A stretch of 64,000 nt of DNA, taken from Pegea sp. RAD2-039. Its lineage: Eukaryota > Chordata > Thaliacea > Salpida > Salpidae. The notes under the pieces are model-generated. The model saw only the letters and a program-made list of their open reading frames with translations, was not told where the DNA came from and searched no databases. The stretch covers positions 1 through 64,000 of the forward strand of contig JAQGEQ010000123.1 of NCBI GenBank assembly GCA_034620365.1, in the 5' to 3' direction. Below are positions 1 to 32,700 of this stretch, piece by piece. Numbering within the stretch: the first letter of the stretch is position 1; each line of letters opens with the position of its first letter. Both the position numbers and the translations under genes were made by a program.

Positions 1-1930
1 TACAGTCTAACAAGTTTGTAATATTAATATCATTCTAATTTCGTAGGCGCTTTCACATGCCTTTTTCTCTGAATCCTTTTTGAAGCCACAAATGGAAAAC
101 TTAAAATGGTTTTTATATGCGTAAAAATATTAGCAGAAGTGTTCAGATCATGAAATTCCAACCTTACTATTTTTGTAGACTGTAAACTTTTACGGTCGAA
201 ATAAACCTTCAATTATGAACTTTGTTCAGCAGAAGAATCGATTCTGATATCGTAACGACACAGAATTGGTGCTAATGATGACGTCACAAGCAATTTACTT
301 GCCGGTAAACTCGTATAAAACGTTTACCTATTTTAGTCTGAGAACCTTACAAGCAGCAGATAGAGGAAGAAGTGATGCACTGATTCATTAATTGTTCTTC
401 ATCTAATCAAAGCAATTCACTAAATACTCTGTAATATTTAATAATTTGAGTCCTTTTCATCTACAAATTAAAGTTCAGATGAGGAAGTTACACGATGTTT
501 CCGTTGCAATTTGCAATTAGTTCGACATCTATAGATTTTTGTTGTTTAAAGACTGGAAATATCAAGTAGTTCATGCAAGACTTCTTGAAAGATCAGGATA
601 AAGATGAAAAATGTGTATCATTTTATTAGTAGTATCTTGAGTTTGAGTGATTAAGTAACCAGGTTATACAAGATGGCGTTGAAGATGTTCAAGTGATAAG
701 AAAAAACAAAATATTAAAAAAGAGAGATGCAGAAGTTGGAAAGAATCTTTTTTGTAAAGATCAGTAGACACTGTGAATACTAATTTCTAAAACTTTTAAG
801 CTTCAATTGAAATTAATGAGCTTTTAGAAAACAAAGATAGTAAATCATGTTGGGCTGTAATCATGTAGAGGTCATTGAAGTTTGTTAAAAAACATCTTTT
901 ATAATTCAAAACAATTTCTTCAAAAATTGAACAATTTTGTAAATCTTATCTCAAATTGTTCTTCAAATTTTAAACTTCAAAAAAAAATTAAAAGATATAA
1001 AAAGCAACAATTTAGTATCACCTCAGGTTTTCTAAATTAACTTCTTTCTCTGAGTTCACTTTCATAGTTTTTACCTCATCCAATGAAACGTCGTTATCAG
1101 AATGCTTAAAATGCAAAAGACATTTAATTAGCAAAACTAATTAAAGTTATTTTTGAAAATTTTTTTCTGCTGAATAAAGTTTGTAATTGAAGTTTATTTC
1201 GACCGTGAAAATTTACAGTCTACAAAAATTTCATCAGTTCATGTTAATAACTGTTTCTTCTGCAAATATTTTACGTGTATACAAACCACTTTAAGTTTTC
1301 GATTTGAGGCTTCAAAAACGAATAAAAAAAGAAAGCATGTGAAAGCGCCTAAGAAATTAGAATGATAATATTAAACAGTACTAAAGTAAAAAATTTTCGT
1401 CTAATATTCGTTCAGGTAAATTTTTGTTTTTTTAGCGGCAAGTTTGCTTCTTGTCTGCATTTCTACTTTGATAGCAACATGTTCTCATACGGAAGAGATG
1501 ATGACGTCAAAAGCTACGTCGAAGGTACCGATTTCATCATTTTTTTTACAGTGTTTCTTGTTACTATCTAGTTTGTTCACCAACTTTTTTACCTGTGAAT
1601 GATGACTTTATCACTACACAGTCTCACCAATGACGTCAGTAATTCACTTTGATGTACTACATCTTATTAGCACTTCATTGTTCGATATTCATAAATAACG
1701 ATTTTCATCTTTTCTTCATTACGTGTTGATTGTTAACATCACTTTGAAAAGATCAAAATTTCTTTTTAATTTTTTTATTAGATCCTTATATCCTGCATCA
1801 ATTTGTACTACTATGGGTACTTAAGGAACAAAAAAAGAATTAATTTAAACAAAATATATTTAACAGCCAATTATTTCAAATTAACTTCTAAATAAAAAAG
1901 GGTTCTTTGAATAATTATATAAAATTACTA
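1..1930. repeat. Foldback-type repeat unit, first copy
   Basis: The stretch has an inverted-repeat layout. A left arm (about 20-235) carries the landmark GTAGGCGCTTTCACATGC. A middle part (about 240-1,160) follows, then a right arm (about 1,160-1,920) carrying the reverse complement GCATGTGAAAGCGCCTA. The left arm recurs directly at 8,180-8,400 and 16,860-17,090 and inverted at 9,415-9,640. The right arm recurs directly at 22,140-22,900 and inverted at 20,400-21,200. The middle part recurs directly at 14,400-15,010 and inverted at 8,470-9,360 and 21,210-22,085. No open frame of note was seen and no transposase was recognised. The window starts inside the repeat, so its true left end is not visible. 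Confidence 0.75.
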
Positions 1931-3972
1931 ATTACAGTTAGTTTTTGAATTTTAGGTAAATGTTTTAAATGAGTTTACCGACAAGTAAAGTGCCTGTGAC
2001 GTCATCATTAGCACCGATTCTTTGTCATTTGGAGAACAGAATCGATTGTTATTTTCTAATAGAAAATTGTTTACTACAAACACCGATAAAGATGTCATCG
2101 ACTTGATGGCAAGATTCGTTTCAAGACCACCATTGATCACCTGATCTCAATGAAAAAGCTGTAAACGTTCGGAAGCATCGAGTTATGTAGCGCTTATAAG
2201 ATGTAGTACATCAAAGTGAATTACTGACCTCACTGGTGATGCTGTGTACCAATGAAGTCATCATTCACAGTTAAGGAAATTGTTGCACAAGCTAGATCCC
2301 AACTAAAAACAATTTCCAAAAAATTGATGAAATTGGCATCTTCGATGTTTTTTGTGACGTCATCATCTCTTCCTTATGACAACATGTTATTAACTTCTAA
2401 TAAGTTGACAAGGTATCTTGTTTCAAACTGCTAATTTACAACTACAACAACTTGTTACGAAATTTGGTTGTTACGACAACCTGTTAGCAACTGATCGTTG
2501 GTTTCTACGATAATGTGGCACTACTGTTGTTTTTTTGTAAGGAAAATCAGTTATTAACTTCAAAGTAGTTCCTAGAAGTTCATCTTCTACAGACTCTGGT
2601 TTAAATTATTGTACAATTGATTATCAATTATAAGATTTTTATCACACAACCTATAAACAGAGTCTTAAGTCCGTAAAATCAGTCTGCAGAACTTTATTGA
2701 TCTTTCCTTGTATCTTTTCGCTGTTTTTTTGTAAATCTTTTAAATTTCTTTTTAGGAATGTCAATTTTGATGAAGTCATCTTACTAACACCGAAGATTGT
2801 CCTGCAATTTTGTATCTTTTAGTTTTCTAATGTTGTAAGTTAAATTTTGATAAAATAGTCAAAATATGCAAATAAGCTTAGACTTTGTTAATTTTCTTTT
2901 TTTCGAAAACATTTTTACTTTTTTTAAAATCACAGACGATTACGTTTAGTTATCTACCAGACAACTTTGTGACGTCATCAACGAGGAGTTATGAAAAATG
3001 ATATTATTGATAGAATTGATTATAATTTATAATATTGAGGTTTGCTGCGTTTCTATTCTAATTATAGCAGAGAAAAAAGTATGGTGATCTATTTTTAAAT
3101 CAAAAAAAAAAGCTTTAAGCTCCACAAGTGACGACTGCAGTTATTTTTTCATTACTTTCTTGTTTATATCACAATAGTCTGTTGTCAATCTATTTGAAAT
3201 TCATCATAAGCAAATCGTTCTGAAAATTTTTGTGTGATTACGTAATTTGTAACAAGCTATTAATAAAAACAGTTTCAAATTTTAATTACAGATATTATAG
3301 TTTTTACTAAAATTCTCTTATTTGTTTATTTTTTAAACTAACAAACTGTTACAAATTTTATCTACTTTTATTGTAGATATGAATCCCCTAGATAAACAGC
3401 GACTCACTTTCATCTGATATTGTCCTTTAAGTTTACCTTACTTTTCATTCTTACATATGGAAAACAAGCAATTAAAGAAAAAATCCATATATTTATTGCA
3501 TCTTTATTAATATTAGTCTAACTTGGTCATATAAATTTATCTCAATAATGCCTCATATAGTAAAATTGTATAAAATAATACAGAAAGAAAAACTAATAGA
3601 ATGATGAAGAGAAGAAAAAATAACTTTAATTATCCATTTCGAATTTTAAAGAAGTTTATAGAAATTTGATGGATATTTCAGCTGCTTAAAAATATGTTAT
3701 TCAGATCACTTGCCTGAAACTATTGCAAAAAGTCAAACGCTGTTAACAACAACAAAATTTGACTTTGTTTAATTCTATTAATTTCAGTTTTTACAAACTT
3801 TTCCTAATTGTCTATTTTCAAATCAAGAAATTTTAATTTTTTTACTTTTTGTAAAATTTTGAAGTTTAAACAAATTTTTTCAAAATATTTTCTTTTATTT
3901 TGATTTCAATTGTGTAAGGGCTTTCACATAATATCTCGCAGCAATAATAAATTAACTTTTCAAATGATAAAT
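1930..3972. repeat. Dispersed repeat module, copy lacking a 420-bp insert
   Basis: Positions 1,900-3,230 are nearly collinear with 5,190-6,510 in direct orientation and with about 9,990-11,300 in inverse orientation. Positions 3,230-3,972 match 6,930-7,680 and 15,600-16,350. At 3,224-3,236 this copy joins sequences that are about 420 bp apart in the other two copies, so it looks like an empty site. No gene was recognised. Confidence 0.7.
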
Positions 3973-5060
3973 ATATTTTGCATTTTATTCATTCTGATAA
4001 CGACGTTTCATTGGATGAGGAAAAAACTATGAAAGTGAACCCAGAGAATGAAGTTGATTTTGAAAACTTGAGGTGATACTAAATTGTTGCTTTTTATATC
4101 TTTCAATTTCTTTTGAAGTTCAAAATTTGAAGAACAATTTGAGATAAATATACAAAATTGTTCAATTTTTGAAGAATTTATTTTGAATTATAAAATATGT
4201 TTATCAACAAACTTGAAAGACATCTGTACATGATTACAGCCCAACATGATCTACTATCTTTGTTTTCTCAAATCTCCCGAATTTCAAGAACAGCTTAAAA
4301 GTTTTGGAAACTAGTATTCACAGTATCTACTGATCTTGACAAAAAAGATTCTTGTTTACTTATGCATCTCTCTTTTTCAATATTTTATTTTTTCTTATCA
4401 CTTTAACATCTTCTACACCATCTATTTTATAGATTTTTCTTTTTTATGGTCTTACAGAGTACAAAAAAATTAAGTAGTTGGCACATTTGACGTTGTCTGT
4501 GACGTCATCATCTCTTTCTTATAACAACATGTTACTAACTTCTATTAAGTTGACAATATAACGAGTTTCTAACTGCTAACTTTAAATTTTAAGGACATTA
4601 AACAGTTTTTACACTTCTTGGCGAAATTATTAATATGTTGTTGATATTACCAACAGCTTTATGTTTATTTTATAATTTTGTTTATAGTTATTGTCAGTTT
4701 TACCACTAAAGTTAATATATAATTAAACTAAAATTTAAAAAATTGTTTATATTTTATTTTTTAGTTATCAAACCACTTGAGAAATGTCTAGCCAGCTTGT
4801 TTATATTACAATTGTTTCAAATCAAGTTTTAATTAACAAAAATATTCTGTAAATAAACATTATAATCAAACAATATTAATAATTACACTTCTTACAATAA
4901 TATTTATCATTTAAAAAGGTGTTTTATAATTGCTGCGAGATTTTATGTGAAAGCTCTTACACAATTGGAAACAAAATAGAAGAAAATATTTCAGAAAAAA
5001 TTTGTTTAAACTCCTTTAAAACATAAAATCTCGCAGCAATAATAAAATAACATTTCAAAT
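3973..5060. repeat. Inverted copies of dispersed modules
   Basis: Positions 3,975-4,440 are the reverse complement of the foldback middle part (compare 700-1,120). Positions 4,470-5,000 are the reverse complement of 7,610-8,125 and 16,290-16,800. The motif of 'ctcgcagcaat' with 'gtgaaagc' occurs in both orientations around 4,930-5,045. This is a junction of rearranged repeat pieces with no coding potential seen. Confidence 0.6.
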
Positions 5061-8000
5061 GATAAATATACACAATTATTAATTCACTAACATGGGTACT
5101 TAAGGAACAAAAAAAAGAATCAACTTAAACAAAGTATGTTTAACAGCCTATAAACTCAAATTAACTTATAAATAAAAAAAGGTTCTTTGAATAATTATAT
5201 AAACTTACTAATTACAGTTAGTTTTTAAATTTTAGGTAAACGTTTTATACGAGTTTACCGACAAGTTAAGTGCTTGTGACGTCATCATTAGCACCGATTC
5301 TTTGTCGTTTTGAGAGCAGAATCAATTGTTATTTTCTAATAGAATTTGTTTACCACAAACACTGACAAAGATGTCATCGACTTGATGGCAAGATTCGTAT
5401 CAAGACCGCCATTGATCACCTGATCTCAATGAAAAAGCTGTAAACGTTCGCAAGCATCGAGTAATGTAGCGCTAATAAGATGTAGTACATCAAAGTGAAT
5501 TACTGACGTCATTAGTGACACTGTGTAGTGATGAAGTCATCATTCACAGTTAAGGAAATTGTTGCAGAAGCTAGATCCTAACTAAAAACAATTTCCAAAA
5601 AATTGATGAAATCAGAATCTTCGACGATGTTTGTGATGTTATCATTTCTTTCTTATGGCAACATGTTTTTAACTTCTAATAAGTTGACAAGATATATTGT
5701 TTCAAGCTGCTAATTTGCTAATAAAACAATCTTATGCTAAATTTGGTTGTTACGACAACCTGTTAGCAACTGATCATTGGTTTCTACGGTAATATGGCAA
5801 TAATTAATGTTTGTTTGTAAGGAAAATCAGTTTTTAACTTCAATGTAGTTCCTAGAAGTTCATCTTCTATAGAATCTGGTTTAAATTATTTTACAATTGG
5901 TTATCAATTATAAGATTTTATCACAAATCCTTTAAACAGAGTCTTAAGTCCGTAAAATCAGTCTACAGAACTTTATTGTTCTTTCCTTGTATCTTTTCGC
6001 TGTTTTTCTGTAAATATTTTAAAATTATTTTTAGCAGTGACAATTTTGATGAGATCATCTCACTAACACTGAAAATTGTTTTGCAATTTTTGTATCTTTT
6101 AGTTTTCTAATGTTGTAAGGTAGATTTTGATAAAACAGTCAAAATATGCAAACTACTTTTAATTTGTTAATTTCCTTTTTTTCGAAAACATTTTTACTTA
6201 TTTTTAATTCACAGACGACTACGTTTAGTCAGCTACCAGACAACTTTATGACGTCATCAACGAGAAGTTATAAAAGTGACATTATTGATAAACTTAATTA
6301 TAATTGATAATATTGAGGTTTGCTGCGTTTCTATTCTAATTATAGCAGAGAAAAAAGTATGGTGATCTATTTTTAAATCCAAAAAAAAAGCTTTAAGCTT
6401 CACAAGTGACGACTGCAGTTATTTTTTCATTACTTTCTGGCTTATATTACAATGGTTTGTTATCAATCCATTTGAAATTCATCATAAGCAAATCCTTCTG
6501 AAAATTTTGCGAAATTTCATCATTTGCCGATTTTAACGTAAAAATCATTCCTTTTAAACAAATTTTTATCTTCCTTACTTCACATTTTTTGTGTTAAAAT
6601 ATCACTTGGAAAACCTTAAAGTCTATAATCATGATTACCTTCCTTTTATTACTATTGCAATATAGAAGAAAAAAAAGTGAAATGAAAGTTTTTTGATAAA
6701 TTATAAACATTATTATTTATAAATATTTACAATATTTATGAATATTTAGTTTAAAAAAGTAACTAATTTTAAAAATATTTAAACAAGAAAAATTTAATAT
6801 AAAATTGTCATTAATTACAAAATCTCAACTATTTGTGAATTATTAACAAATTTAATTCATAATCCAGCTCCTTAAATAATATTTATTTAGATTATTTGTT
6901 ATTCACATGATCAATTCAGCAATTTCTGTGATTATGTAATTTGCAACAAGCTATTAATAAAAAAAAGTATAAATCTTTAATTACAGATATTATAGTTTTT
7001 ACCAAACTTTTCTTATTTCCTTATTTTTTAAACTAACAAACTGTTACAAATTTTATCTACTTTTGTTGTAGATATGAATGTCCAAAATAAACAGCGACAA
7101 ACTTTCATCTGATATTGTCCTTGAAGTTTATCTTGCTTTTCATTCTGATAGATGGAAAACAAGCAACTAAAGACAAAATCCATATATTTTTTGCATCTTT
7201 ATTAATATCAGTCTAAGTTGGTCATATTAATTTTTCTCACTACTGCCTCAGATAGTATAATTGTATAAAATAAAAAAGAAAGAAAAACTAATAGAATAAT
7301 GAAGTGAATAGAAAATAACTTTAAGTATCCATTTCGAATTTAAAAAAAATTTAAACAAATTTGATGGATATTTCAGTTCCTTAAAAATATGTTATTCAAA
7401 TCAATTGCCTGAAAACTTTGCAAAATGTCAAAGCTGTTAACAACTAAAATAGTTTGAAATTTTATAATTTTAAAAATAATAGTTTGTACTAAACTTCTTT
7501 AATTGTTTATTTTGAAATCAAGAAATCTCTAATTTTTGTACAATTTTGTAAATTTTTGAAGTTTAAACAAATTTTTTCTGAAATATTTTCTTTTATTTTA
7601 ATTCCAATTGTGTAAGGGCTTTCACATAAAATCTAGCAGCAATAATAAAACACCTTTTTAAATGATAAATATTATTGTAAGAAGTGTAATGATTAATATT
7701 GTTTGATTATAATGTTTACTTACAGAATATTTTTGTTAATTAAAACTTGATTTGAAACAATTGTAATATAAACAAGCTGGCTAGACATTTCTCAAGTGGT
7801 TTGATAACTAAAAAATAAAATATAAAAAATTTTTTAAACTTTAGTTTAATTATATATTAACTTTAGTGGTAAAACTGACAATAATTATAAACAAAATTAT
7901 AAAATAAACATAAAGCTGTTGGTAATATCAACAACATATTAATAATTTCGCCAAGAAGTGTAAAAACTGTTTAATGTCCTTAAAATTTAAAGTTAGCAGT

Positions 8001-8180
8001 TAGAAACTCGTTATATTGTCAACTTAATAGAAGTTAGTAACATGTTGTTATAAGAAAGAGATGATGACGTCACAGACAACGTCAAATGTGCCAACTACTT
8101 AATTTTTTTGTATAGTGTTTTTAGTTAAGATCTAGATTGTGCAAAAATTTCTTTAAATGTAGATGATGACTTCATCACTA
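5060..8180. repeat. Dispersed repeat block, second copy with insert
   Basis: Positions 5,094-6,510 repeat 1,813-3,230. Positions 6,360-8,465 are a direct duplicate of 15,040-17,140, with a constant offset of about 8,676 bases. This copy carries the insert at about 6,510-6,926 that the 1,930-3,972 copy lacks. Positions 7,610-8,125 are the inverse of 4,470-5,000. No gene was recognised. Confidence 0.7.
6510..6926. mobile_element. Putative short non-autonomous insertion (~420 bp)
   Basis: The interrupted copy reads ...aaaattttg then about 417 bp then caattt..tgtgatta. The uninterrupted copy at 3,220-3,240 reads ...aaaatttttgtgtgatta. The same insertion is at about 15,184-15,602, flanked there by AATTTTG on both sides, which fits a short target-site duplication. 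Part of it is also present inverted at about 9,805-9,985. The ends show at most a weak terminal inverted similarity (GCTAAC / GTTAGC-like). No open frame is visible and the element class is unknown. Confidence 0.4.
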
Positions 8181-9660
8181 TACAGTCTAACAAGTTTGTA
8201 ATATTAATATCATTCTAATTTCGTAGGCGCTTTCACATGCCTTTTTCTCTTAATCGTTTTTGAAGCCACAAATGGAAAACTTAAAATGGTTTTTAAATGC
8301 GTAAAAATATTAGCAGAAGTGTTCAGCTCATGAAATTTTAACCTTACTATTTTTGTAGACTGTAAACTTTTACGGTCGAAATGAACCTTCAATTATGACC
8401 TTTGTTCAGCAGAAGAATCGATTCTGATATCGTAACGACACAGAATTGGTGCTAATGATGACGTCTAATGAAAACTATGTTCAGCAGAAAAAAATTTTCA
8501 AAAATAACTTTAATTAGTTTTGCTAATTAAATGTATTTTGCATTTTAAGAATTCTGATAACGACGTTTCATTGGATGAGGTAAAAACTATGAAAGTAATC
8601 TCAGAGAAAGAAGGTGATTTAGAAAACCTGAGGTGATACTAAATTGTTGCTTTTTATATCTTTTAATTTCTTTTGAAGTTCAAAATTTGAAGAACAATTT
8701 GAGATAAATATACAAAATTGTGTAATTTTTGAAGACAATATTTTGAATTATAAAAGATGTTTATCAACAAACTTGCAAGACATCTGTACATGATTACAGC
8801 CCAACATGTTCTACTATCTTTGTTTTCTAAAAGCTCTTTAATTTCAAGTGCAGCTTAAAAGTTTTACAAATTAGTATTCACAGTATCTACTGATCTTTAC
8901 AAAAAAGATTTTTTCTAACTTCTGCATCTCTCTTTTTTAATATTTTATTTTTTCTTATCACTTGAACTTCTTCTACGCCATCTTGTATAATCTGGTTACT
9001 TAATCACTCAAAATCAAGATAATACTAATAAAATGATACACATTTTTCATCTTTATTCTGATCTTTCAAGATGTCTTGCATGAACTACTTGATATTTCCA
9101 GTCTTCAAACAACAAAAATCTATAAATGTCGAACTAACTGTAAATTGCAACTGAAACATCGTGTAACTTCCTCATCTGAACTTTAATTTGTAGATGAAAA
9201 GGACTCAAATTATTAAACATTTCAAAGTATTTAGTGAATTGCTCAGATTAGATGAAGAACAGTTAATGAATCAGTGCATCACTTCTTCCTCTATCTGCTG
9301 CTTGTAAGGCTATCAGACTAAAATAGATAAACGTTTTATACGAGTTTACTGACAAGTAAATTGCTTGTGACGTCATCATTAGCACCAATTCTGTGTCGTT
9401 TCGATATCAGAATCGATTTTTCTGCTGAACAAAGTTCATAATTGAAGGTTTATTTCGACCGTAAAAGTTTACGGTCTACAAAAAATAGAAAGATTCAAAA
9501 ATTCATCGAATGAACACTTCTGCTAATATTTTTACGCATATAAAAACCATTTTAAGTTTTCCATTTGTGGCTTCAAAAACGATTAAAAGAAAAAGGCTTG
9601 TGAAAGCGCCTACGAAATTAGAATGATATTAATATTACAGACTGGTTACACTGTATAGTG
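8180..9660. repeat. Foldback-type repeat unit with ~220-bp inverted arms
   Basis: The left arm (8,190-8,410) and right arm (9,415-9,645) are near-perfect reverse complements. Both carry the GTAGGCGCTTTCACATGC-type landmark at the outer end and GTTCAGCAGAA at the inner end. The interior (8,470-9,360) is the reverse complement of 240-1,150. The arms could pair into a long hairpin. No coding sequence was seen, so the unit would be non-autonomous if mobile. Confidence 0.65.
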
Positions 9661-12436
9661 ATGAAGTCATCATCTACATTTAAAGAAATTTTTGCACAAT
9701 CAAGATCTTAACTAAAAACACTGTACAGAAAAATTAAGTAGTTGGCACATTTGACGTTGTCTGTGACGTCATCATCTATTTCTTATAACAACATGTTACT
9801 AACTTTTTTTCTTCTATATTGCAATAGTAATAAAAGGAAGTTAATCATGATTATAGACTTTAAGGTTTTCCAAGTGATATTTTAACACAAAAAATGTGAA
9901 GTAAGGAAGATAAAAATTTGTTTAAAAGGAATGATTTTTACGTTAAAATCGACAAATGATGAAATTTAGCAAAATTTTCAGAACGATTTGCTTATGATGA
10001 ATTTCAAATGGATTGATAACAAACTATTGTGATATAAACAAGAAAGTAATGAGAAAATTACTGCAGTCGTCACTTGTGAAGCTTAAAGCTTTTTTTTTGG
10101 ATTTAAAAATAGATCACCATACTTTTTTCTCTGCTATAATTAGAATAGAAACGCAGCAAACCTCAATATTATCATTTATAATTAATTTTATCAATAATGT
10201 CACTTTTATAACTTCTCGTTGATGACGTCATAAAGTTGTCTGGTAGCTGACTAAACGTAGTCGTCTGTGAATTAAAAAAAAGTAAAAATGTTTTCCAAAA
10301 AAAGAAATTAACCAATTCAAATTAGTTTGCATATTTTGACTATTTTATCAAAATTTACCTTACAACATTAGAATACTAAACGATACAAAAATTGCAAAAC
10401 AATTTTCGGTGTTAGTGAGATGATCTCATCAAAATTGTCACTGCTAAAAAGAAATTTAAAATATTTACAGAAAAACAGCGAAAAGATACAAGGAAAGAAC
10501 AATAAAGTTCTGCAGACTGATTTTACGGACTTAAGACTCTGTTTAAAGGATTTGTGATACAAATCTTATAATTGATAATCATTTGTAAAATAATTTAAAC
10601 CAGATTCTATAGAAGATGAACTTCTAGGAACTACTTTGAAGTTAAAAACTGATTTTCCTTACAAACAAACAATAGTTAGTGCCATATTACCGTAGAAACC
10701 AATGATCAGTTGCTAACAGGTTGTCGTAACAACCAAATTTAGCATAAGATTGTTTTATTAGCAAATTAGCAGCTTGAAACAATATATCTTGTCAACTTAT
10801 TAGAAGTTAAAAACATGTTGCCATAAGGAAGAGATGATAACGTCACAAACATCGTCGAAGATTGTGATTTCATCAATTTTTTGGAAATTGTTTTTAGTTA
10901 GGATCTAGCTTGTGCAACAATTTCCTTAACTGTGAATGATGACATCATCACTACACAGTGTCACTAATGACGTCAGTAATTCACTTTGATTTACTACATG
11001 TTAACAGCACTACATAACTCGATGCTCCCGAACGTTTACAGCTTTTTCATTGAAATCAGGTGATCAATGGCGGTCTTGATACGAATCTTGCCATTAAGTC
11101 GATTACATCCTTGTCAGTGTTTGTGTAAAACATTTTTCTATTAGAAAATATCCATTGATTCTGCTCTCGAAACAACAAAGAAACGGTGCTAATGATGACG
11201 TCACAAGCACTTTACTTGTCGGTAAACTCGTATAAAACGTTTACCTAGAATTCAAAAACTAACTGTAATTAGTAATTTTATATAATTATTCAAAGACCTT
11301 TTTTATTTGGAAGTTAATTTGAGTTTATAGGCTGTGAAATATACTTTGTTTAAATTAATTCTTTTTTTGTTCCTTAAGTACCCATAGTAGTACAAATTGA
11401 TGCAGGATATAAGGGTTTAATAAAAATTAAAAAGAAATTTTGATGTTTTCAAAGTGATGTTAACAATCAACACGTAATGAAGAAAAGATGAAAATCGTTA
11501 TTTATGAAAGTCGAGTTATGTAGCGCTAATAAGATGAAGTACATCAAAGTGAATTACCGACGTCATTGATGAGACTGTGTAGTGATGAAGTCATCATTCA
11601 CAGTTAAAAAAGTTGGTGAACAAACTAGATAGTAACAAGAAACACTGTAAAATAAAAGATGAAGTTGGTACCTTCGACATGCTTGTGACGTCATCATCTC
11701 TTCCTTATGAGAACATGTTGCTATCAAAGTAGAAACGCAGACAGGAAGCAAACTTGCCGCTAAAAAAAACAAAAATTTACCTGAACGAGTATTAGACGAA
11801 ATTATTTTACTTTAGTACTGTTCAATAGCATCATTTTAATTTCGTAGGCGCTTTCACATGCTTTCTTCTTTTAATCGTTTTTGAAGCCTCAAATGGAAAA
11901 CTTAAAGTGGTTTGTATATACATAAAAATATTTGCAGAAGAAATAGTTATTAGCATGAACTGATGGAATTTTTGTAGACTGTAAACTTTTACGGTCGAAA
12001 TAAACTTCAATTATGAACTTTGTTCAGCAGAAGTAAAATTCAAAAACTAACTTTAATTAGTTTTGCTAATTAAATGTCCGTTGCATTTTGTGCATTGTGA
12101 TAACGACGGTTCATTTGATGAGGTAAAAACTATGAAAGTAAACTCAGAGAAAGAAGTTGCTTTAGAAAACCTGAGGTGATACTAAATTGTTGCTTTTTAT
12201 ATCTTTTATTTCTTTTAAAGTTTAAAATTTGAAGAACAATTTGAGATAAAATTTACAAAATTGCTCAATTTTTGAAGACATTGTTTTAAATTATAAAAGA
12301 TGTTTATCAACAAACTTGAATGACATCTGTACGTGATTACAGCCCAACATGATCTACTATCTTTGTTTTCTAAAAGCTCCCGAATTTCAAGAGCAGCTTA
12401 AAAGTTTTACAAATTAGTATTCACAGTATCTACTGA
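9660..12436. repeat. Inverted copy of the dispersed block, then a truncated foldback unit
   Basis: Positions 9,725-9,800 repeat part of 4,470-4,550. Positions 9,805-11,270 are the reverse complement of about 5,205-6,670. Positions 11,250-11,840 resemble the long foldback arm, being the reverse complement of about 22,345-22,900. Positions 11,840-12,010 are the short arm. Positions 12,030-12,436 are the start of the foldback interior, which stops where the first LINE copy begins. This stretch is duplicated at 17,140-18,374. Confidence 0.65.
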
Positions 12437-14013: not shown

Positions 14014-15010
14014 ACTACAAGTTAGTAACATGTTGTCATAAGGAAGAGATGATGACGTCACAAACAAGTCGAAGATGCCAACTTCTTCAATTTTTGGAAA
14101 TTATTTTTAGTTCAGATCTAGCTTGTGCAACAATTTTCTTAAGTGTGGATTTCCTCAACTTCATTACTACACAGCATCACCAGTGACGTCAGAATATCAC
14201 TTTGATTTACTACATCTTGACAGCGCTACATAACTCGATGCTCCTGAACGTTTACAGCTTCTTCATTGAGATCAAGTGATCAATGGCGGTCTTGATACGA
14301 ATCTTGCCATCAAGTCGATGACATCCTTGTAGTGTTTGTGTTAAACAATTTCTATTAGAAAATAACAATCGAATCTGCTCTCGAAACGACAAAGAATCGG
14401 TGCTAATGATGACGTCACAAACACTTTACTTGTCAGTAAACTCGTATAAAACGTTTACTTATTTTAGTCTCATAGCTTTACAAGCAGCAGATAGAGGAAG
14501 AAGTGATGCACTGATTGATTAATTGTTCTTCATCTTATCAAAGCAATTCACTAAATACTTTGTAATATTTAATAATTTGAGTCCTTTTCATCTACAATTT
14601 AAAGTTCAGATGTGGAATTTACACGATGTTTCCGTTGCAATTTGAATTTAGTTCGACATTTATAGATTATTGTTGTTTGATGGCTGGAAACATCAAGTAG
14701 TTCATGCAAGACATCTTGAAAGATCAGGATAAAGATGAAAATTGTGTATCATTCTGTTAGTAGTATCTTGAGTTTGAGTAATTAAGTAACCAGGTTATAC
14801 AAGATGACCTAGAAGATGTTGAAGTGACAAGAAAAACTAAAATATTAAAAAAGAGAGATGCCGAAGTTGAAAAGAATCTTTTTTGTAAAGATCAGTAGAT
14901 ACTGTGAATACTAATTTGTAAAACTTTTAAGCTTCACTTGAAATTAATGAGCTCTTAGAAAACAAAGATAGTAAATCATATTGGGCTGTAATCATGTAGA
15001 GGTCATTGAA
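14014..15010. repeat. Repeat modules downstream of LINE copy 1
   Basis: Positions 14,021-14,455 match 19,959-20,395 with an offset of 5,938. They also resemble the inverse of the 2,000-2,400 module. Positions 14,455-15,010 match the foldback interior in direct orientation (310-880). TGACGTCA occurs at 14,053, 14,184 and 14,410. No gene was seen. Confidence 0.6.
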
Positions 15011-17140
15011 GTTATTTAAGTTATAAAAAAGTGTGGTAAGCTATTTTAAAATCCCCAAAAACAGCTTTAAGCTCCACAAGTGACTACTAAAGTTAGTTTT
15101 TCATTACTTTTCTTGTTTATATCACAATAGTTTGTTGTCAATCCATTTGAAATTCATCATAAGCAAATCGTTCTGAAAATTTTGCTAACTTTCATCATTT
15201 ACCGATTTTAACGTAAAAATCATTCCTTTTAAACAAATTTTTATCTTCCTTACTTCATATTTTTTGTTTTAAAATATCACTTGAAAAATCTCAAAGTCTA
15301 TAATTACATTTAACTTCCTTTTATTACTATTGCAATATAGAAGAAAAAAAAGTGAAATGAAAGTTTTTTGATAAATTATAAACATTATTATTTATAAATA
15401 TTTACAATATTTATGAATATTTAGTTTAAAAAAGTAACTAATTATAAAAATATATAAACAAGAAAAATTTAATATAAAATTGTCATTAATTACAAAATCT
15501 CAACTATTTGTGAATTATTAACAAGTTTAATTCATAATCCAGCTCCTTAAATAATATTTATTTAGATTATTTGTTATTCACATGATCAATTCAGCAATTT
15601 TGTGTGATTATGTAATTTGTAACAGGCTATTAATAAAAAAAAGTATTAATCTTTAATTACAGATATTATAGTTTTTACCAAACTTTTCTTATTTCCTTAT
15701 TTTTTAAACTAAGAAACTGTTACAAATTTTATCTACTTTTGTTGTATATATGAATGTCCAAAATAAACAGCGACTCACTTTCATCTGATATTGTCCTTGA
15801 AGTTTACCTTGCTTTTCATTCTGATAGATGGAAAACAAGCAACTATAGATAAAATCCATATATTTTTTGCATCTTTATTAATATCAGTCTAAGTTGATCA
15901 TATTAATTTTTCTCACTACTGCCTCAGATAGTATAATTGTATAAAATAACAAAAAAAGAAAAACTAATAGAATGATGAAGTGAAGAGAAAATAACTTTAA
16001 TTATCCATTTCGAATTTAAAAAAAGTTTAAACAAATTTGATGGATATTTCAGTTCCTTAAAAATATGTTATTCAGATCACTTGCCTGAAAATATTTCAAA
16101 ATGTCAAAGGCTGTTAACAACTAAAATAGTTTGAAATTTTATAATTTTAAAAATAATAGTTTGTATTAAACTTTTTTAATTGTTTATTTTGAAATCAAAA
16201 AATCTCTAATTTTTGTAAAATTTTGTAAAATTTTGAAGTTTAAACAAATTTTTTCTGAAATATTTTCTTTTATTTTGATTCCAATTCTGTAAGGGCTTTC
16301 ACATAAAATCTCGCAGCAATAATAAAACACCTTTTTAAATGATAAATATTATTGTAAGAAGTGTAATGATTAATATTGTTTGATTATAATGTTTACTTAC
16401 AGAATATTTTTGTTAATTAAAACTTGATTTGAAACAATTGTAATATAAACAAGCTGGCTAGACATTTCTCAGGTGGTTTGATAACTAAAAAATAAAATAT
16501 AACAAATTTTGTAAACTTTAGTTTAATTATATATTAACTTTAGTGGTAAAATTGATAATAATTATAAACAAAATTAAAATATAAACATAAAGCTTTTAAT
16601 AACATCAACAACATATTAATAATTTCGCAAAGAGGTGTAAAAACTGTTTAATGTCCTTAAAATTTAAAGTTAGCAGTTAGAAATTCGTTATATTGTCAAC
16701 TTAATAGAAGATAGTAACATGTTGTTATAAGAAAGAGATGATGACGTCACAGACAACATCGAAAGTGCCAACTACTTAATTTTTTTGTATAGTGTTTTTA
16801 TTTAATATCTAGATTGTGCAAAAATTTTTTTAAATGTAGATGATGACTTCATCACTCTACAGTGTAACAAGTCTGTAATATTAATATCATTCTAATTTCG
16901 TAGGCGCTTTCACATGCCTTTTTCTCTTAATCGTTTTTGAAGCCACAAATGGAAAACTTAAAATGGTTTTTATATGCGTAAAAATATTAGCAGAAGTGTC
17001 AGATCATGAAATTCTAACCTTACTATTTTTGTAGACTGTAAACTTTTACGGTCGAAAAAAACCTTCAATTATGAACTTTGTTCAGCAGAAGAATCGATTC
17101 TGCTATCGTAACGACACAGAATCGGTGCTAATGATGACGT
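15011..17140. repeat. 2.1-kb direct duplication of 6,360-8,465
   Basis: The stretch is collinear with 6,360-8,465 at an offset of about 8,676, including the 420-bp insertion (15,184-15,602) and the short foldback arm at 16,880-17,090. The two copies differ by scattered substitutions and small indels. No gene was recognised. Confidence 0.75.
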
Positions 17141-18374
17141 CACAAGCACTTTACTTGTCAGTAAACTCGTATAAAACGTTTACCTAAAAATCAAAAACTA
17201 ACTGTAATTAGTAATTTTATATAATTATTCAAAGACCTTTTTTTATTTAGAAGTTAATTTGAGTTTATAGGCTGTTAAATATATTTTGTTTAAATTAATT
17301 CTTTTTTTGTTCCTTAAGTACCCATAGTAGTACAAATTGATGCAGGATATAAGGATCTAATAAAAAAATTAAAAATAAATTTTGATCTTTTCAAAGTGAT
17401 GTTAACAATCAACACGTAATGAAGAAAAGATGAAAATCGTTATTTATGAATATCGAGTAATGTAGCGCTAATAAGATGTAGTACATCAAAGTGAATTACT
17501 GACGTCACTAGTGAGACTGTGTAGTGATGAAGTCATCATTCACAGTTAAAAAAGTTGGTGAACAAACTAGATAGTAACAAGAAACACTGTAAAATAAAAG
17601 ATGTTATCGGTAACTTCGACGTCGCTTGTGACGTCATCATCTCTTCCTTATGAGAACATGTTGCTATTAAAGTAGAAACGCAGACAGGAAGCAAACTTGC
17701 CGCTAAAAAAACAAAAATTTACCTGAACGAATATTAGACGAAAATTTTTACTTAATTACTGTTTAATAGCATCATTCTAATTTTTTAGGCGCTTTCACAT
17801 GCTTTCTTATTTTAATCGTTTTTGAAGCCTCAAATGGAAAACTTAAAGTGGTTTGTATATACGTAAAATATTTGCAGAAGAAACAGTTATTAACATGAAC
17901 TGATGAAATTTTTGTAGACTGTAAACTTTTACGGTCGAAATAAACTTCAATTATGAACTTTATTCAGCAGAAGTAAAATTCAAAAACTAACTTTAATTAG
18001 TTTTGCTAATTAAATGTCTTTTGCATTTTGAGCATTCTGATAACGACGTTTCATTGGATGAGGTAAAAACTATGAAAGTAAACTCAGAGAAAGAAGTTGC
18101 TTTAGAAAACCTGAGGTGATACTAAATTATTGCTTTTTATATATTTCAATTTCTTTTGAAGTTGAAAATTTGAAGAACAATTTGAGATAAGATTTACAAA
18201 ATTGTTCAATTTTTGAAGAATTTATATTGAATTATAAAAGATGTTTATCAACAAACTTGAATGACATCTGTACATGATTACAGCCCAACATTATCTACTA
18301 TCTTTGTTTTCTCAAAACTCCCGAATTTCAAGAGCAGCTTAAAAGTTTTACAAATTAGTATTCACAGTATCTAC
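17140..18374. repeat. Left part of a 3.25-kb duplication
   Basis: Together with LINE copy 2 and 19,954-20,395, this stretch duplicates 11,200-14,455 at an offset of about 5,938. It contains the long-arm module, a short foldback arm and a truncated foldback interior that ends exactly at the LINE 5' junction, as in the other copy. TGACGTCA occurs at 17,135, 17,500 and 17,629. Confidence 0.75.
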
Positions 18375-19953
18375 TGATTAATGATTAATATGTGAAGACT
18401 TCCACAAATTTGGAAGAATGCTATTATTACTCCAATTTATAAGAAGGGTCCCAAAAACACTGCACTTAACAACAGACCAGTTTCGCTGACTTCGGTTATC
18501 TGCAGAACTCAAGAACATATCATTCACAACCATATAACTAGCCGTTTGACGGAGCATCATCTAATATCTGATGCCCAGCATGGCTTTGTTAAGCAAAGAT
18601 CTTCTTTGACTCAACATCTCACTTTTTGCAATGAGCTTACAGCTCATTACGAAAGTATTACTCCATGTGACATCATATACCTTGATTTTGCTAAAGCGTT
18701 TGATTCTGTTCCACACAACAAGCTCATTACTGTATTGAAAAACATAACTATCAGCAACTCTATCTTAAAATGGATTGACGATTTCTTATCAGGTAGAACC
18801 CAACGAACCCGTGTAGAAAGATCTTTATCTACTCCTAGTAAAGTCACCAGCGGCGTTCCTCAGGGTTCCGTCCTGGGTCCACTTTTTTTTTTGATTTTCA
18901 TTGAAGACCTCATCAGAAGACTAATAACAGTAGACAATGTCAGTGTGTTTGTGTATGCAGATGACATCAAGCTATTATCTGGTTCTCACTCAAAGCTCCA
19001 AACTGCACTAAACATTGTAGAAAACTGGTCTGCAAATTGGCAACTTAAAATCCAGCCAACAAAGTCTGAAGTTATAACATTCTCCCGTAAGCCAGCGGCC
19101 AACTTCAGCAACCAATACTACATCAATGGATCCATTCTTGAACGAGTATCCTCAGTTATAGACCTCGGCATTACTCTGACATCTGACTTCAAATGGCACA
19201 GTTATGTTTCCAGAATCTTTGGAAAATCTTTCAAGCTTGTCCACCTCATCATAAAGACTTTTAATTCTAAAGATCCATGGTTTTACGTCAACCTTTTCAA
19301 ACTGTACATACGCCCTATTCTTGAATACAATGTCAGTGCATGGATGCCATATCAAGTTGGTGATATCAGAAAAATCGAATCTGTTCAGGCAACATTTACG
19401 AGATTGGTTTGCAGGAAACTTAATATCAAATACGAGAGTTATAAGCATCGTCTCAGCTTCTTCAATCTAGATACTTTGGAAATCCGAAGAATTAAATACG
19501 ACCTTATTCTGATTTTTAAAATTATTCACAACCTAATTGATCTTCAGTTTGATGACTTCTTCTCCATTAGTCATTCGCTCAAGTTATATCAAATTAGAAG
19601 ACATAAACTACATCTTAATAAGCCCACTCCACCAGCTACGTTAACCAGATTAAGTTTTTTCTCATACCGCACAATCAGTACATGGAACAATCTGCAATCA
19701 GAGATTGTCATGTCAAAATCACTTGTGTTGTTCAAAAAAAAGCTGAAATGTTATAATATCGCCAAAATTGCCATTTCTAAACTGTGAGTTTTTCTCTTTT
19801 ACAATACTATGATTCTGTGCAATTCTTCATTGTCATATACTTTTTCGTTTACACGTCAAATAGATCTAATTTGTGAGAATGTGTGTTAGCGAGAGGTGCT
19901 CTCTTTAGGCACCCTCCGTCACATTTATTGTAATAAATAAATAAATAAATTAC
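18375..19953 (+). mobile_element. LINE retrotransposon copy 2 (5'-truncated, CR1/Jockey type)
   Basis: This copy begins within the repeat module at the same junction as copy 1 and ends with a short hairpin (19,889-19,918) followed by (TAAA)n (about 19,930-19,953). It carries an open reverse-transcriptase frame. The identical 5' junction in both copies, inside identical flanks, shows that they arose by segmental duplication after a single insertion rather than by two insertions. Endonuclease and ORF1 regions are missing. CR1 or Jockey clade membership is inferred from the RT motifs and tail and needs a phylogeny. Confidence 0.85.
18396..19787 (+). CDS. Reverse transcriptase domain of LINE ORF2, partial
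   Basis: The product would copy retrotransposon RNA into DNA at a nicked chromosomal target. The frame is open from 18,396 (after TGA at 18,393-18,395) to TGA at 19,787, about 463 residues. The ATG at 18,546 is internal, so the protein is 5'-truncated. Numbering from that ATG, the YLDFAKAFDSVPH palm motif is at 45-57, SGVPQGSVLGPL at 102-113 and the catalytic FVYADD at 135-140. The two aspartates of YADD are intact. A C-terminal part rich in Lys and aromatic residues follows, typical of LINE RT ends. Upstream residues read WKNAIITPIYKKGP, the usual start of the RT fingers. The endonuclease is absent, so this copy cannot be autonomous. Confidence 0.85.
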   Translation, partial: RLPQIWKNAIITPIYKKGPKNTALNNRPVSLTSVICRTQEHIIHNHITSRLTEHHLISDAQHGFVKQRSSLTQHLTFCNELTAHYESITPCDIIYLDFAKAFDSVPHNKLITVLKNITISNSILKWIDDFLSGRTQRTRVERSLSTPSKVTSGVPQGSVLGPLFFLIFIEDLIRRLITVDNVSVFVYADDIKLLSGSHSKLQTALNIVENWSANWQLKIQPTKSEVITFSRKPAANFSNQYYINGSILERVSSVIDLGITLTSDFKWHSYVSRIFGKSFKLVHLIIKTFNSKDPWFYVNLFKLYIRPILEYNVSAWMPYQVGDIRKIESVQATFTRLVCRKLNIKYESYKHRLSFFNLDTLEIRRIKYDLILIFKIIHNLIDLQFDDFFSISHSLKLYQIRRHKLHLNKPTPPATLTRLSFFSYRTISTWNNLQSEIVMSKSLVLFKKKLKCYNIAKIAISKL

Positions 19954-20399
19954 TACAAGTTAGTAACATGTTGTCATAAGGAAGAGATGATGACGTCACA
20001 AACAAGTCGAAGATGCCAACCTCTTCAATTTTTGGAAATTGTTTTTAGTTCAGATCTAGCTTGTGCAACAATTTTCTTAACTGTGGATTCCCTCAACTTT
20101 ATTACTACACAGTCTCACCAGTGACGTCAGAAAATCACTTTGATTTACTACATCTTGACAGAGCTACATAACTCGATGCTCCTGAACGTTTACAGCTTTT
20201 TAATTGAGATCAGGTGATCAATGGCGGTTTTGATACGAATCTTGCCATCAAGTCGATGACATCTTTGTCAGTGTTTATGGTAAACAATTTTCCTTAAAAA
20301 AGTAACAATTGAATCTGTTCACGAACGACAAAGAATCGTTGGTAATGATGACGTCACAAGCACTTTACTTGTCGGTAAACTCGTAAAAAATATTTACCT
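19954..20399. repeat. Right part of the 3.25-kb duplication
   Basis: The stretch is collinear with 14,014-14,455. It ends near 20,395, where the two duplicates diverge: copy 1 enters the foldback interior and this one enters the long inverted-repeat arm. No gene was seen. Confidence 0.7.
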
Positions 20400-22897
20400 A
20401 AAATTCAAAAACTAACTGTAATTAGTAATTTTAAATAATTATTCAAAGAATTTTTTTCATTTAGAAGTTAATTTGAGTTTATTGGCTGTTAAATATACTT
20501 TGTTTAAATTAATTCTTTTTTTGTTCCTTAAGTACCCATAGTGGTACACAGTGATGAAGATATAAGGATATAATAAGTAATATTTAAAAAATTAAAAAGT
20601 AATTTTGATATTTTCAAAGTGATGTCAACAATCAACACGTAAATGAAGAAAAGATGAAAATTGTTATTTATATAAGTCGAGTAATGTAGCGCTAATAAGA
20701 TGTAGTACATCAAAGTGAATTACTGACGTCATTGGTTAGACTGTGTAGTGATGAAGTTATCATTCAAAATTAAAGAAGTTGGTGAACAAACTAGATAGTA
20801 AAAAGAAACACTGTAAAAAAAAAGATGAAGTTGGTACCTTCTACATGCTTGTGACGTCATCATCTCTTCCTTATGAGAACATGTTGCTATTAAGGTAGAA
20901 ACGCAGACAAGAAGGAACCTTGCAGCAAAAAACAAAAATTTACCTGAACAGATATTAGACAAAAGTTTTACTTTAGTACTGTTTAATATTATCATTCTAA
21001 TTTCGTAGGCGCTTTTACATGCTTTCTTCTCTTATTCGTTTTTGAAGCCTCAAATGGAAAACTTAAAGTGGTTTGTATATACATAAAAACATTAGCAGAA
21101 GAAACAGTTATTAACATGAACTGATGAAATTTTTGTAGACTGTAAACTTTTACGGTCAAAATAAACTTTAATTATGAACTTTATTCAGCAGAAAAAATTT
21201 AAAAAATAACTTTATTTAGTTTTGCTATATAAATGTCTTTTGCATTTTAAGCTTTATGATAACGACGTTACATTGGATGAGGTAAAAACTATGAAAGTGA
21301 ACCCAGAGAATGAAGTTGATTTTGAAAACTTGAGGTGATACTAAATTGTTGCTTTTTATATCTTTCAATTTCTTTTGAAGTTCAAAATTTGAAGAACAAT
21401 TTGAGATAAATATACAAAATATTTGAAGACAATATTTTGAATTATAAAAGATGTTTATCAACAAACTTGAAAGACCTCTGTTATTGAAAGACCTCTGTTA
21501 TTGAAAGACCTCTACATGATTACAGCCCAACATGATCTACTATCTTTGTTTTCTAAAAGCTCATTAATTTCAAGTGCAGCTTAAAAGTTTTACAAATTAG
21601 TATTCACAGTATCAACTGATCTTTACAAAAAAGATTCTTTGTAACTTCTGCATCTCTCTTTTTTAATATTTTATTTTTTCTTGTCACTTTAACATCTTCA
21701 ACGCCATCTTGTATAACCTGGTTACTTAATCACTCATACTGAAGATACTACTAATAAAATGATACACATTTTTCTTCTTTATCCTGATCTTTCAAAATGT
21801 CTTGCATGAACTATTTGATATTTCCAGTCTTCGAACAACAAAAATCTATAGATGTCAAACTAACTGCAAACTGCAACTGAAACATCGTGTAACTTCCTCA
21901 TCTGAACTTTAATTTGTACATGAAAAGGACTCAAATTATTAAACATTACAAAGTATTTAGTGAATTGCTTTGATTAGATGAAGAACGATTAATCAATCAG
22001 TGCATCACTTCTTCCTCTATCTGCTGCTTGTAAGGTTATCAGACTAAATTAGGTAAACGTTTTTTACGAGTTTACTGCTAAGTGCTTGTGACGTCATCAT
22101 TAGCACCGATTCTTTCTCGTTTGCAGAGCAGAATCGATTTTTTCTGCTAAACAAATTTCGTAATTAAAGTTTATTTCGACCGTGAAAGTTTACGGTCTGC
22201 AAAAAATTGTAAATGTTATGTCTATGGTTCATACTTATGCTAATATTTATGTATTTAAAAACCACTTTAAGTTTTCCATTTGTGGCTTTAAATTAGATTA
22301 TAAGAAAAAAGCATGTGAAAGCGCCAACGAAATTAGAATGATACTATTAAAGAGTACTAAAGTTAAAAATTTCGCCTAATATTCGTTTAGCTAAATTTTT
22401 GTTTTTTGTGCAAGGTTCCTTCTTGTCTGCGTTTCTACTTTGATAGCAACATGTTCTCATAAGAAAGAGATGATGACGTCACAAGCGATGTCGAAGGTAC
22501 CAACTTCATCTTTTATTTTACAGTGTTTCTTGTTACTATGTAGTTTGTTCACCAACTTTTTTACCTGTGAATGATGACTTTATCACTACACAGTCTCACC
22601 AATGACGTCAGTAATGCACTTTGATTTGCTACATCTTGACAGCGCTACATTACTCGACCTTCATAAACAACGATTTTCATCTTTTCTTCATTACGTGTTG
22701 ATTGTTAACATCACTTTGAAAACATCAAAATTACGTTTTAATTTTTTTATTAGATCCTTATATCCTGCATCAATTTGTATTACTATGGGTACTTAAGGAA
22801 CAAAAAAAAGAATTAATTTAAACAAAGTATATTTAATAGACAATAAACTCAAATTAACTTCTAAATGAAAGAATATTCTTTGAATAATTACAAAAAA
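20400..22897. repeat. 2.5-kb palindromic (foldback) repeat
   Basis: The left arm 20,400-21,205 and right arm 22,140-22,897 are long reverse complements. Shared landmarks include TACCCATAGT, the TGACGTCA sites, GTAGGCGCTTT and ACTTTAGTACT. A spacer of about 930 bp (21,210-22,085) separates them and is the reverse complement of 240-1,150. A 19-20 bp run, GAAAGACCTCTGTTATT, is repeated in tandem near 21,470-21,510. No transposase frame is visible. This is the most complete foldback unit in the window and marks the right edge of the mosaic. Confidence 0.75.
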
Positions 22898-25260
22898 ATT
22901 CTATTGATAGACTCACCTTATGAAAATTTAGTAAATTAATTTATTATTTAGTAAACAATTGTATCAAAACTTCTACTGGTTATATTTTTAACTTAAAATT
23001 TGTTAGAACTTTTTTGAAAAAAAAATATTTTGAATAATCAAGCAAGGAAATGTTTTAAAGTTGATGATTTATAAAAAATTTTATAACATTTAATAAAATG
23101 TATAACATTTTTTTCTTAAAACAAACAAACAATTTATTTACATTACGAATAAGTAAACAATTAAACACTTAATAATTCTAAAAGTATAGTTTTTGAATAA
23201 AAATTAATTTTTATTAAACATAAAATTTAATACTTCATTTCGTTTGTAGATATCATTATCATAAATTTTAGTTTGCCTAAGTAGCAAAGATCTGTAAAAT
23301 CTATCACTTTTTTCTTGTTTATTTTATCCACTCGTCTTTTCAAAATTATCTCTAGTGGATAAATTTGATCTAACAATTTGATGATTTTCATACTTATTCA
23401 ACGATTTATTTTATAAATAAGTAAGTTCTTTCACAAACAGAAAAGTTGAAATGTAACAACTACCATTAACAGAAATAAAAAGTCTAGTATGCAAACAATT
23501 ATACAGTTTCTAGGTATTAAATCTTCAAATTATTTGTGAGAATTCTAACAAAAAACAAACTACAAAAGAGAAAATGATATTTTGTAAAAAAGAATTATCA
23601 AGTTTTGATTTTATTTGTGAATTAGTTGCTATCATATAACTTGATTTCGAAGGATATATGACTGACTTGGTGTTGTTGGCCGAGGAGTTTTTACTAATAA
23701 AGGAGTTAGAACAAACAAAACCAATTTTTATCCTCGCATTGTTCGTGATCTTACTCTTGCTGTTTTCTTTTTAAATCATCATATTTCAAGTCTGTTTATA
23801 CATTGAAAGATGATCTTAAAATCTTTAAATCGAGTCAAATACAATAAAGAGTCATCTTTTAATGAGTCTCACTTTTAAGGCTTCTATAAGTGGTCATCAA
23901 TAAATATATTTTTATGGAAGAATCTGTTAACAAAATCTTAAATTGGAAAATCTATTTGCAAAAGTTTTTTGGTTTGTTTTTTCTTTTCATATCTCTTCTA
24001 ATCTTATTTTTTGCAATCAAACCTTAGATGACGTCATCTCTTGAAGAATGTAGTTCAATGAAAACCATTTTCTATTTGTTTTTGCTCTAATAAACCGACA
24101 TTTACTTTTCAAATTGTTCTCTTTTTTATTCCAACAGAATTCTGCTCGTTGGTAATTACCAGCTGACTGTATGACGTCATCAACACTAGCGTCATCTTCA
24201 CTTCTTCCATGTTTAACAAATTATTTTCAATTTATCGATTTCCCTTTTTTTACGTATCTATGAACCCTCAACAAAATTTCTTGTACCACAATCGTTGTAG
24301 TTTTGTTTTCATCAAATTAATCATCGTTCACCAGCATTACACAATAGTTCGTCAAATATTGATTTGCAATTTGTGAAAGTAAACACAAAGTAAATCTTAG
24401 AATTATATTTTATATCTAAACTTAATAAATATTTAATATTTGATAAAAAAAAGATCTTTATGAATAAAATTTGTGAAAAAAAATTTGTTGATAAATAATT
24501 TTCACTATTAGATGGTTGAAGTTTATTGTTTATCTGATCAAATATTAGTTTCTTAGCTGCACCTTTCCATCTTGTCTGCGTTTTTGCTTTGATTAAAGCA
24601 GAGAGTAAGTTTTGAGGAACTTGCGCCAATTTGCAGATTTGTTATCTGGTGGAGGAAATCGTCTAATGATATAAAACAGTGACATCAAAGTCAACAAATC
24701 TTTGAAATTACTTCAATAATCTTTCTTGCTTAAAATCAGTTCCACTTTCTACTTATTGTTCAAATATTCATTTGCCAATATAGTTTCATTTGACCAACAT
24801 GAGATTTTTTCATGACAAAAACGGCTTTATACACTTTTTACAATTTGTAGCAAGAATACTTTAAACGAATTTAGATATTTCAACAAATTGAAGATGAAAA
24901 CTGATTTTACAATCTTCTGTAAAACGTTACAAGCTAATTGAAATAGAATATATTCTGCTAAAAATTGACAAAATCACAACAATAGCTCTATTTCAAAACT
25001 TTTAATTTAATTGGCAATGATGAAAATTACTCAAATGAATTCAAATGTAAAACTTTCATTTTACAACAATAATCTTTTTTCTTTTTAGCCCTAAACAGAT
25101 AAAAACATATTAATTGTTTTTTATTTTTTAATCTATTTTTATTTTTCTACAATGCTTGATTTAACATGATTTAATTTTAATTAACAAAAGACTATTATGA
25201 TATAAACACAAAAGTAACGAGAAATTAACTCTGGTCGTCTCGAAATAAGAAATTAGATTT
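22898..25260. repeat. Diverged relics of the same repeat family
   Basis: The stretch is A+T-rich with no convincing gene. Around 24,160-24,200, 'accagctgactgtatgacgtcatcaac' type sequence resembles the module at 6,225-6,265. Positions 25,185-25,245 resemble the inverse of 6,410-6,450. Positions 24,560-24,600 resemble 22,425-22,455. One partial unit of the 107-113 bp repeat lies at about 23,665-23,715. The similarity is patchy, so these are probably old copies. Confidence 0.4.
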
Positions 25261-28447: not shown

Positions 28448-28448
28448 A

Positions 28449-32340: not shown

Positions 32341-32429
32341 TTTATTTCTTTATTAATTTTTATTTTAAGAAAGTCCTCAAAGCATATAACAGTGAATAAT
32401 CTCATAGAATTATAATAATATTAAAAGGA

Positions 32430-32700
32430 TGAAATATTTGTAGTTTAGAAATGGTAGTGTTGGCAATATTATAACGGTTCAACTTCTTTTTGAACAACAG
32501 GAGTGATTCTAACATGACAATGTCTTATGGCAGCTGGTTCCAAGTACTAATTGTGCGGTATGAGAAAAAAAATTGCTCTGATTGACCTACCAGGTGATAT
32601 GGGCTTATTAAGATGTAATGTGTTGTCCGAGCTGATATAATTAGAGGAAACGTCTAATGGAAAAGAAATCATCAAACTGATTACAGGTGAGATGAAACCA
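32430..32700 (-). pseudogene. Antisense relic of LINE 3' coding end
   Basis: Read on the minus strand, this resembles the last ~90 codons of the LINE at 18,375-19,953. Matching landmarks are CATCTTAATAAGCCCA, CTCATACCGCACAAT, TTGTTCAAAAA and the final CCATTTCTAAACT. It has frameshifts and stops and lacks the hairpin and tail. It lies between the 12-bp satellite and the A/T repeat. Confidence 0.75.

Follow-up and report, generated by a model that had tools for sequence, protein, structure and literature searches.

Nested inverted repeats clustered at a single locus of Pegea sp. RAD2-039, likely grown in place

Galileo/Foldback elements of Drosophila, as described in excerpts of PMC3573991, have long, internally repetitive inverted arms, occur as chimeric copies, and lengthen their arms with recruited internal sequence. 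The repeat block at the start of a contig of Pegea sp. RAD2-039, described here, is like them in all three respects. According to the same excerpts (PMC3573991), Galileo is represented by 170 annotated copies in D. mojavensis, most of them with identical 7-bp target-site duplications, and has a P-type transposase. In contrast to Galileo as portrayed there, the block occupies one locus, has no convincing target-site duplication, and shows no transposase in the frames scanned (PMC3573991). A second likeness is to complex segmental duplication by breakage-replication/fusion, for which excerpts of PMC12807874 describe inverted-segment amplification and short pieces inserted at joins, both features of the block. 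The cases covered in those excerpts come from human disease genomes and experimental evolution, whereas the block is germline DNA with copies of several ages (PMC12807874).

Satellite DNA resembles the block in being multi-copy DNA at one locus; however, the block is not arranged head-to-tail. Its modules range from ~50 bp to 3.3 kb and lie in both orientations, and only two short tandem arrays were listed in positions 1-22,903. Pack-type elements and Helitrons are transposons that carry gene fragments. The block is like them in having a host-gene exon and intron within a repeat module, and unlike them in having no dispersed copies, no defined ends, and only one captured gene found. We class the block as a local inverted-duplication cluster that behaves like a mix of complex segmental duplication and Galileo-like arm exchange; dispersal, by which transposons are defined, was tested for and was not observed.

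Architecture and confinement of the repeat block

The window analysed is the first 64,000 positions of a 369,023-bp contig (C122) in a genome assembly of 105.7 Mb and 387 contigs. It is AT-rich, with GC content from 19% to 35% across 2-kb stretches, and no Rfam family at gathering score and no tRNA gene was found in it. Self-comparison showed that a mosaic of nested direct and inverted repeats, proposed by a sequence-only reading of this DNA, is real. Only 62 bases of the block lack a second internal copy (defined as 60 bp or more at E 1e-8). Inside the block are 19 direct and 20 inverted pairs (at least 150 bp and at least 86% identity), a number far beyond chance expectation. Grouping of aligned positions reduced the 22,903 positions to 5,603 classes, which is a lower bound for distinct sequence because palindromes cause over-merging. 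The 2.1-kb and 3.25-kb direct duplications and the inverted pair claimed by the earlier reading were all recovered by self-BLAST, with slightly shifted borders (Table 1).

Table 1. Positions of the repeat block, its main repeat pairs, modules and cargo, and the relics beside it
Feature	Position	Strand	Evidence or remark
Nested direct and inverted repeat block, whole	1-22,903	.	Self-comparison, signed module order; left side cut by contig end
Inverted copy of 19,947-22,349	22-2,406	+	Self-BLAST, 87.4% over 2,437 columns; absent from the earlier list
Inverted copy of 9,804-11,391	5,086-6,675	+	Self-BLAST, 95.2% over 1,592 columns
Direct copy of 15,025-17,141	6,351-8,465	+	Self-BLAST, 95.2% over 2,118 columns
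Direct copy of 17,093-20,400, LINE inside	11,154-14,461	+	Self-BLAST, 94.9% over 3,315 columns
Palindromic level E-I ... I-E	5,515-8,191	.	Self-BLAST, signed module order
Palindromic level E-A ... A-E around C-B loop	8,035-9,805	.	Self-BLAST, signed module order
Most complete palindromic unit (G-F-E-D-A, loop C-B, A-D-E-F-G)	20,423-22,903	.	Arms 20,423-21,198 / 22,137-22,903, 86%
Module B in hybrid H-B-C	14,364-14,461	+	All four informative sites H
Module B in hybrid A-B-G	17,092-17,186	+	Four informative sites A, A, H, H
CACNB fragment, reversed	840-1,106	-	73.3% to C341
CACNB exon and intron fragment, decayed	3,990-4,254	+	75.6% to C341
CACNB fragment	8,548-8,814	+	74.0% to C341
CACNB fragment	12,030-12,357	+	68.7% to C341
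CACNB fragment	17,970-18,298	+	71.4% to C341
CACNB fragment	21,250-21,463	+	77.8% to C341
5'-truncated LINE, copy 1	12,438-14,008	+	96.7% to dispersed copy
5'-truncated LINE, copy 2	18,379-19,946	+	97.8% to dispersed copy; 413-aa reverse-transcriptase frame
Module J relic, diverged, outside block	23,851-24,054	+	Profile search, E 6.2e-8
Module D relic, diverged, outside block	24,540-24,592	+	Profile search, E 0.0011; best of 25 control sequences E 0.55

The left end of the block is the contig end. Thus, the contig starts within the block, which is truncated on that side. The sharp end that had been placed near 22.9 kb holds for the recent copies, which stop at 22,903, but diverged relics of modules J and D lie beyond it. 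Profiles of modules A, B, E/F, G, C, K, P and H gave no match in the flank. The J and D relics at 23.9-24.6 kb suggest that the amplified block may have arisen next to older sequence of the same kind.

The signed module order in the right part is G- F- E- D- A+ C- B- A- D+ E+ F+ G+. Here the most complete unit has arms of about 780 bp around a loop of ~0.94 kb. Most of this unit recurs in reverse at positions 1-1,952, where the contig end clips it. Symmetric orders E-A...A-E, with E of opposite orientation beside the A-unit, and E-I...I-E were found further inside, indicating that several levels of the block are inverted repeats themselves. Copies of module E fall into three groups, with 75-82% identity between and 84-97% within groups. 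Module A has two groups (80-86% between, 91-98% within) and one outlier (80-83% to the rest), and copies of modules G, C and H are 87-97% identical. These layers of divergence indicate that an old family was later re-amplified.

Greedy tiling of the block with internal donors gave 15 switches: 10 lie where donors share 25-1,647 bp, one has 2 bp, and four have 5-73 bp of filler; alignment overlap at a donor switch is by itself no proof of exchange there. Module B (~95 bp) has A or H on one side and C or G on the other, and all four combinations (A-B-C, A-B-G, H-B-C and H-B-G) are present. Two A-B-C and three H-B-G copies served as references for B, one further A-B-C copy being excluded, and sites outside B are uninformative because the neighbours are unrelated. 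In the H-B-C hybrid no switch is visible inside B, and any switch lies at or after the last informative site. The hybrids fit exchange within or at B as judged from only four informative sites, and gene conversion could mimic some exchange patterns. The 10 switches in shared sequence and the presence of both reciprocal B hybrids support the earlier proposal of a rearrangement hotspot amplified by recombination.

Genome searches placed 42 of the 44 matches of 20,400-22,897, 14 of the 16 matches of 2,406-4,423 and all 8 matches of 5,686-8,040 on C122. Three 25-27-base patterns, searched with as many as three mismatches allowed, had 4/4, 6/7 and 13/14 of their matches there; all these counts are lower bounds. 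The five off-contig matches are short and lie on C341, C94, C11 and C3. A relative of module C on C341 was matched by two of the long queries (76% over 265 query bases with 2,406-4,423), and the other matches of long queries were pieces of 43 bp on C94 and 50 bp on C11. The patterns matched C341 once more, as well as an intron on C3 in a gene that we take, from reading it by eye, to be DDB1. Apart from such short matches, no dispersed copies of block modules of the Foldback/Galileo kind were found in these genome-wide searches. High-identity direct and inverted copies occur in one region only, and the joins lie in shared homology (10/15), with the remaining five as described above; both are marks of local segmental duplication with inversion. 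From these searches, the modules are nearly confined to C122 and do not look like a dispersed transposon family. Ordinary dispersed and unclustered elements, the outcome by which the earlier reading would be refuted, were not seen, the high-copy LINE being the exception.

Gene and LINE fragments carried by the block

Two components of the block had escaped the earlier reading: a module derived from a CACNB gene, and a truncated LINE in both copies of the 3.3-kb duplication. The C341 relative of module C is an exon and the following intron of a CACNB gene. Exons on C341 matched calcium-channel beta-2 (E 3.8e-50) and Pfam VGCC_beta4Aa_N (E 1.1e-4, under the curated cut-off), and the module C profile matched C341 with E 3.3e-43. 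Similarity between block and gene begins inside the exon, crosses the splice donor and continues into the intron. Because the intron is included, the piece was most likely copied as DNA and not from spliced message. In the block copies the CACNB frame soon runs into stops, and it is probably non-functional. A CxxHF-like run in module M, read by eye, was considered as a THAP/P-transposase and this reading was rejected, M aligning to the CACNB exon and intron; a 35-residue piece gave no Pfam match.

On C94, ~98 bp resemble the end of A together with the beginning of the module that follows it (81%), and the similarity ends shortly before the point at which CACNB similarity starts in the block. 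This relic may be a remnant that predates CACNB capture; a single short relic proves little.

The LINE frame 18,546-19,787 matched RVT_1 with E 2.7e-31, and the frame 12,996-13,808 matched it with E 0.022. The 3' tail is a simple repeat (TAAA), and the match to a longer dispersed copy begins at base 16, showing 5' truncation. The family is high-copy: a first look gave 5,044 candidates, and the 101 that were scored, the window's copy included, all had at least 95% protein identity. With reverse transcriptase, simple-repeat 3' tail, 5' truncation and dispersed relatives all present, the element is, by its sequence, a LINE of a young high-copy family. No target-site duplication was found at either block copy. 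The LINE lies between two different modules (M and E), and no simple insertion site is therefore left. Both junctions are common to the two copies, indicating that they represent one insertion that was duplicated afterwards. Identity to the dispersed copy is 97.8% and 96.7%, and that between the two halves of the duplication is 94.9%; the duplication thus probably came soon after LINE insertion.

LINE 3'-end fragments were also seen in the flank at 32,379-32,680 and 53,318-53,397, with 77-86% identity to the block LINE. A profile search of the flank matched the LINE at 32.4-32.7 kb.

Origin of the block

We consider it likely that the nested inverted repeats of the block form a cluster specific to this locus, which grew in place by local duplication, inversion and exchange. 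Growth would have started from old local sequence with inverted modules. The inverted-repeat locus would have acquired part of a CACNB-type calcium-channel exon and intron, and would later have received the LINE insertion. The block would have grown on the spot through repeated rounds of local duplication and inversion, its shared modules exchanging sequence. DNA may have broken, or forks collapsed, at the inverted repeats; repair would have proceeded by homologous recombination or template switching against another copy, and the few joins with short filler may reflect end joining. Breakage or fork collapse followed by repair from another copy would explain the direct and inverted duplications, the hybrids and the filler. 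Long inverted repeats are fragile. Excerpts of PMC7999016 likewise describe them as fragile (PMC7999016).

The main rival is a non-autonomous DNA transposon of foldback or long-inverted-arm type that hopped mainly into itself or nearby, captured a gene piece, and has died out elsewhere in the genome. The earlier reading had proposed a foldback-transposon cluster, and in shape the block is foldback-like: the unit at the right end has long terminal inverted arms (~780 bp, 86%) around a loop, units are nested, a gene piece has been captured, and a short A-end relic lies on C94. The modules are, however, on one contig except for short diverged relatives. Target-site duplications were sought at 14 unit definitions. 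In 11 of these no more than 4 bp are common to the two ends, and in three A-type units words of 6, 7 and 8 bp recur at both ends (nominal P 0.09, 0.02 and 0.02, with 14 definitions tried), and the two longer words could be taken in favour of transposition. The shared words are AT-rich, specific to each unit, and either overlap arm ends or lie in symmetric flanks. They were therefore not counted, though they may be target-site duplications; no convincing one was seen at the 14 definitions. Unit flanks are inverted copies of each other, which is not expected from independent insertions. No transposase was found in the four frames scanned of the nine window frames of at least 120 aa. The earlier statement that none was seen holds for these four; the earlier reading had missed the reverse-transcriptase fragment that is present twice. 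The missing dispersed copies and the symmetric flanks make a transposon hopping into itself disfavoured, and we regard it as unlikely. The C94 relic, together with the short C341, C11 and C3 matches, leaves room for ancient mobility. Local rearrangement is the more likely source of the block than a jumping element.

A resident palindromic element is a further, tentative idea. It would multiply only at its own locus, its inverted modules breaking and being recopied in place, with CACNB and LINE sequences as cargo; such an element would have foldback-like form without a transposase.

An assembly artefact through misjoined reads of a larger or different repeat is very improbable. Hard repeats are places where contigs start, and this one begins within the block; however, the copies differ by about 2-25% and are hence distinguishable, and the old and recent layers and the shared LINE junctions are orderly. 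With such differences, collapse of identical copies during assembly is also unlikely. Least probable is a functional locus under selection, either one that yields hairpin RNA or one with a structural role in the chromosome (centromere or subtelomere), for which the long inverted repeats and the adjoining 12-bp satellite, with exact dimers all in the window, could be cited, but the window has no conserved frame or Rfam family, the LINE apart, and the CACNB pieces match the gene at 69-78% identity. Silencing of CACNB by hairpin RNA was also considered and is improbable, as the same divergence would be too great for it.

Neighbouring repeats, octamer excess and meaning

Beyond the block, a 12-bp satellite, (GTTTATCTATCT)n, occupies 28,454-32,353 and 38,905-40,653. 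Its exact dimers number 167 genome-wide and all lie in the window; this satellite thus seems confined to the locus too. A second local duplication (26,328-28,459 / 33,803-36,607; 93-94%, direct, with halves in swapped order) flanks the first satellite array. A two-copy tandem of ~111 bp occurs at 38,578-38,798 and 49,021-49,267 in opposite orientations, with 83-87% identity. Translation by the ciliate code (table 6) was tried and rejected. The long frames that it gave included several on both strands, the longest lying over the 12-bp satellite; under the standard code the LINE frame stays open, and the introns of genes read by eye are of the GT-AG type.

The palindrome TGACGTCA, an ATF/CRE-type site, occurs 27,792 times in the 105.7-Mb genome, compared with 969 for its reversed control. 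Window examples are at 58,511, 59,128, 62,483 and 63,442. TCACGTGA, a CpG palindrome of the same composition, occurs 4,614 times genome-wide and its reversed control 237 times; part of the TGACGTCA excess may therefore be common to ACGT-centred palindromes. The 14-mer TGATGACGTCATCA was found 1,972 times genome-wide and its reversed control not once. Three loci picked as TGACGTCA-rich (29.5 kb) contain 100 copies of the octamer, and no one-mismatch variant exceeds 12. Of 99 copies in these loci, 74 are without a similar context in their own locus and 25 have one, part of them in tandem arrays. The copies are thus not simply a repeat family; the picture resembles retention or spread of this exact octamer. 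Short tandem arrays around TGACGTCA, with units of ~19-20 bp by eye, lie in C1:3,612,000-3,621,500 at about 4,343-4,561 and 8,857-9,180 within it.

The block itself has 32 copies of TGACGTCA, consistent with the genome-wide habit and module amplification. A role of TGACGTCA as break site was rejected: of 79 module borders, 6 have a copy no more than 15 bp away, against a shifted-control mean of 3.4 (P 0.12). The median border distance was 51 versus 251 (0 of 2,000 shifts as small), a result that we discounted because the small multi-copy modules themselves carry TGACGTCA. An earlier account of the excess was sought in the literature, and nothing relevant was seen among the matches listed. Compared with the block, the excess of TGACGTCA across the genome may be more unusual, and it could outweigh the block in importance.

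Foldback-like structures are usually read as transposons, and the block has such a form without clear signs of transposition. If confirmed by reads and related strains, it would offer a natural series for the growth of inverted repeats and the exchange of their parts.
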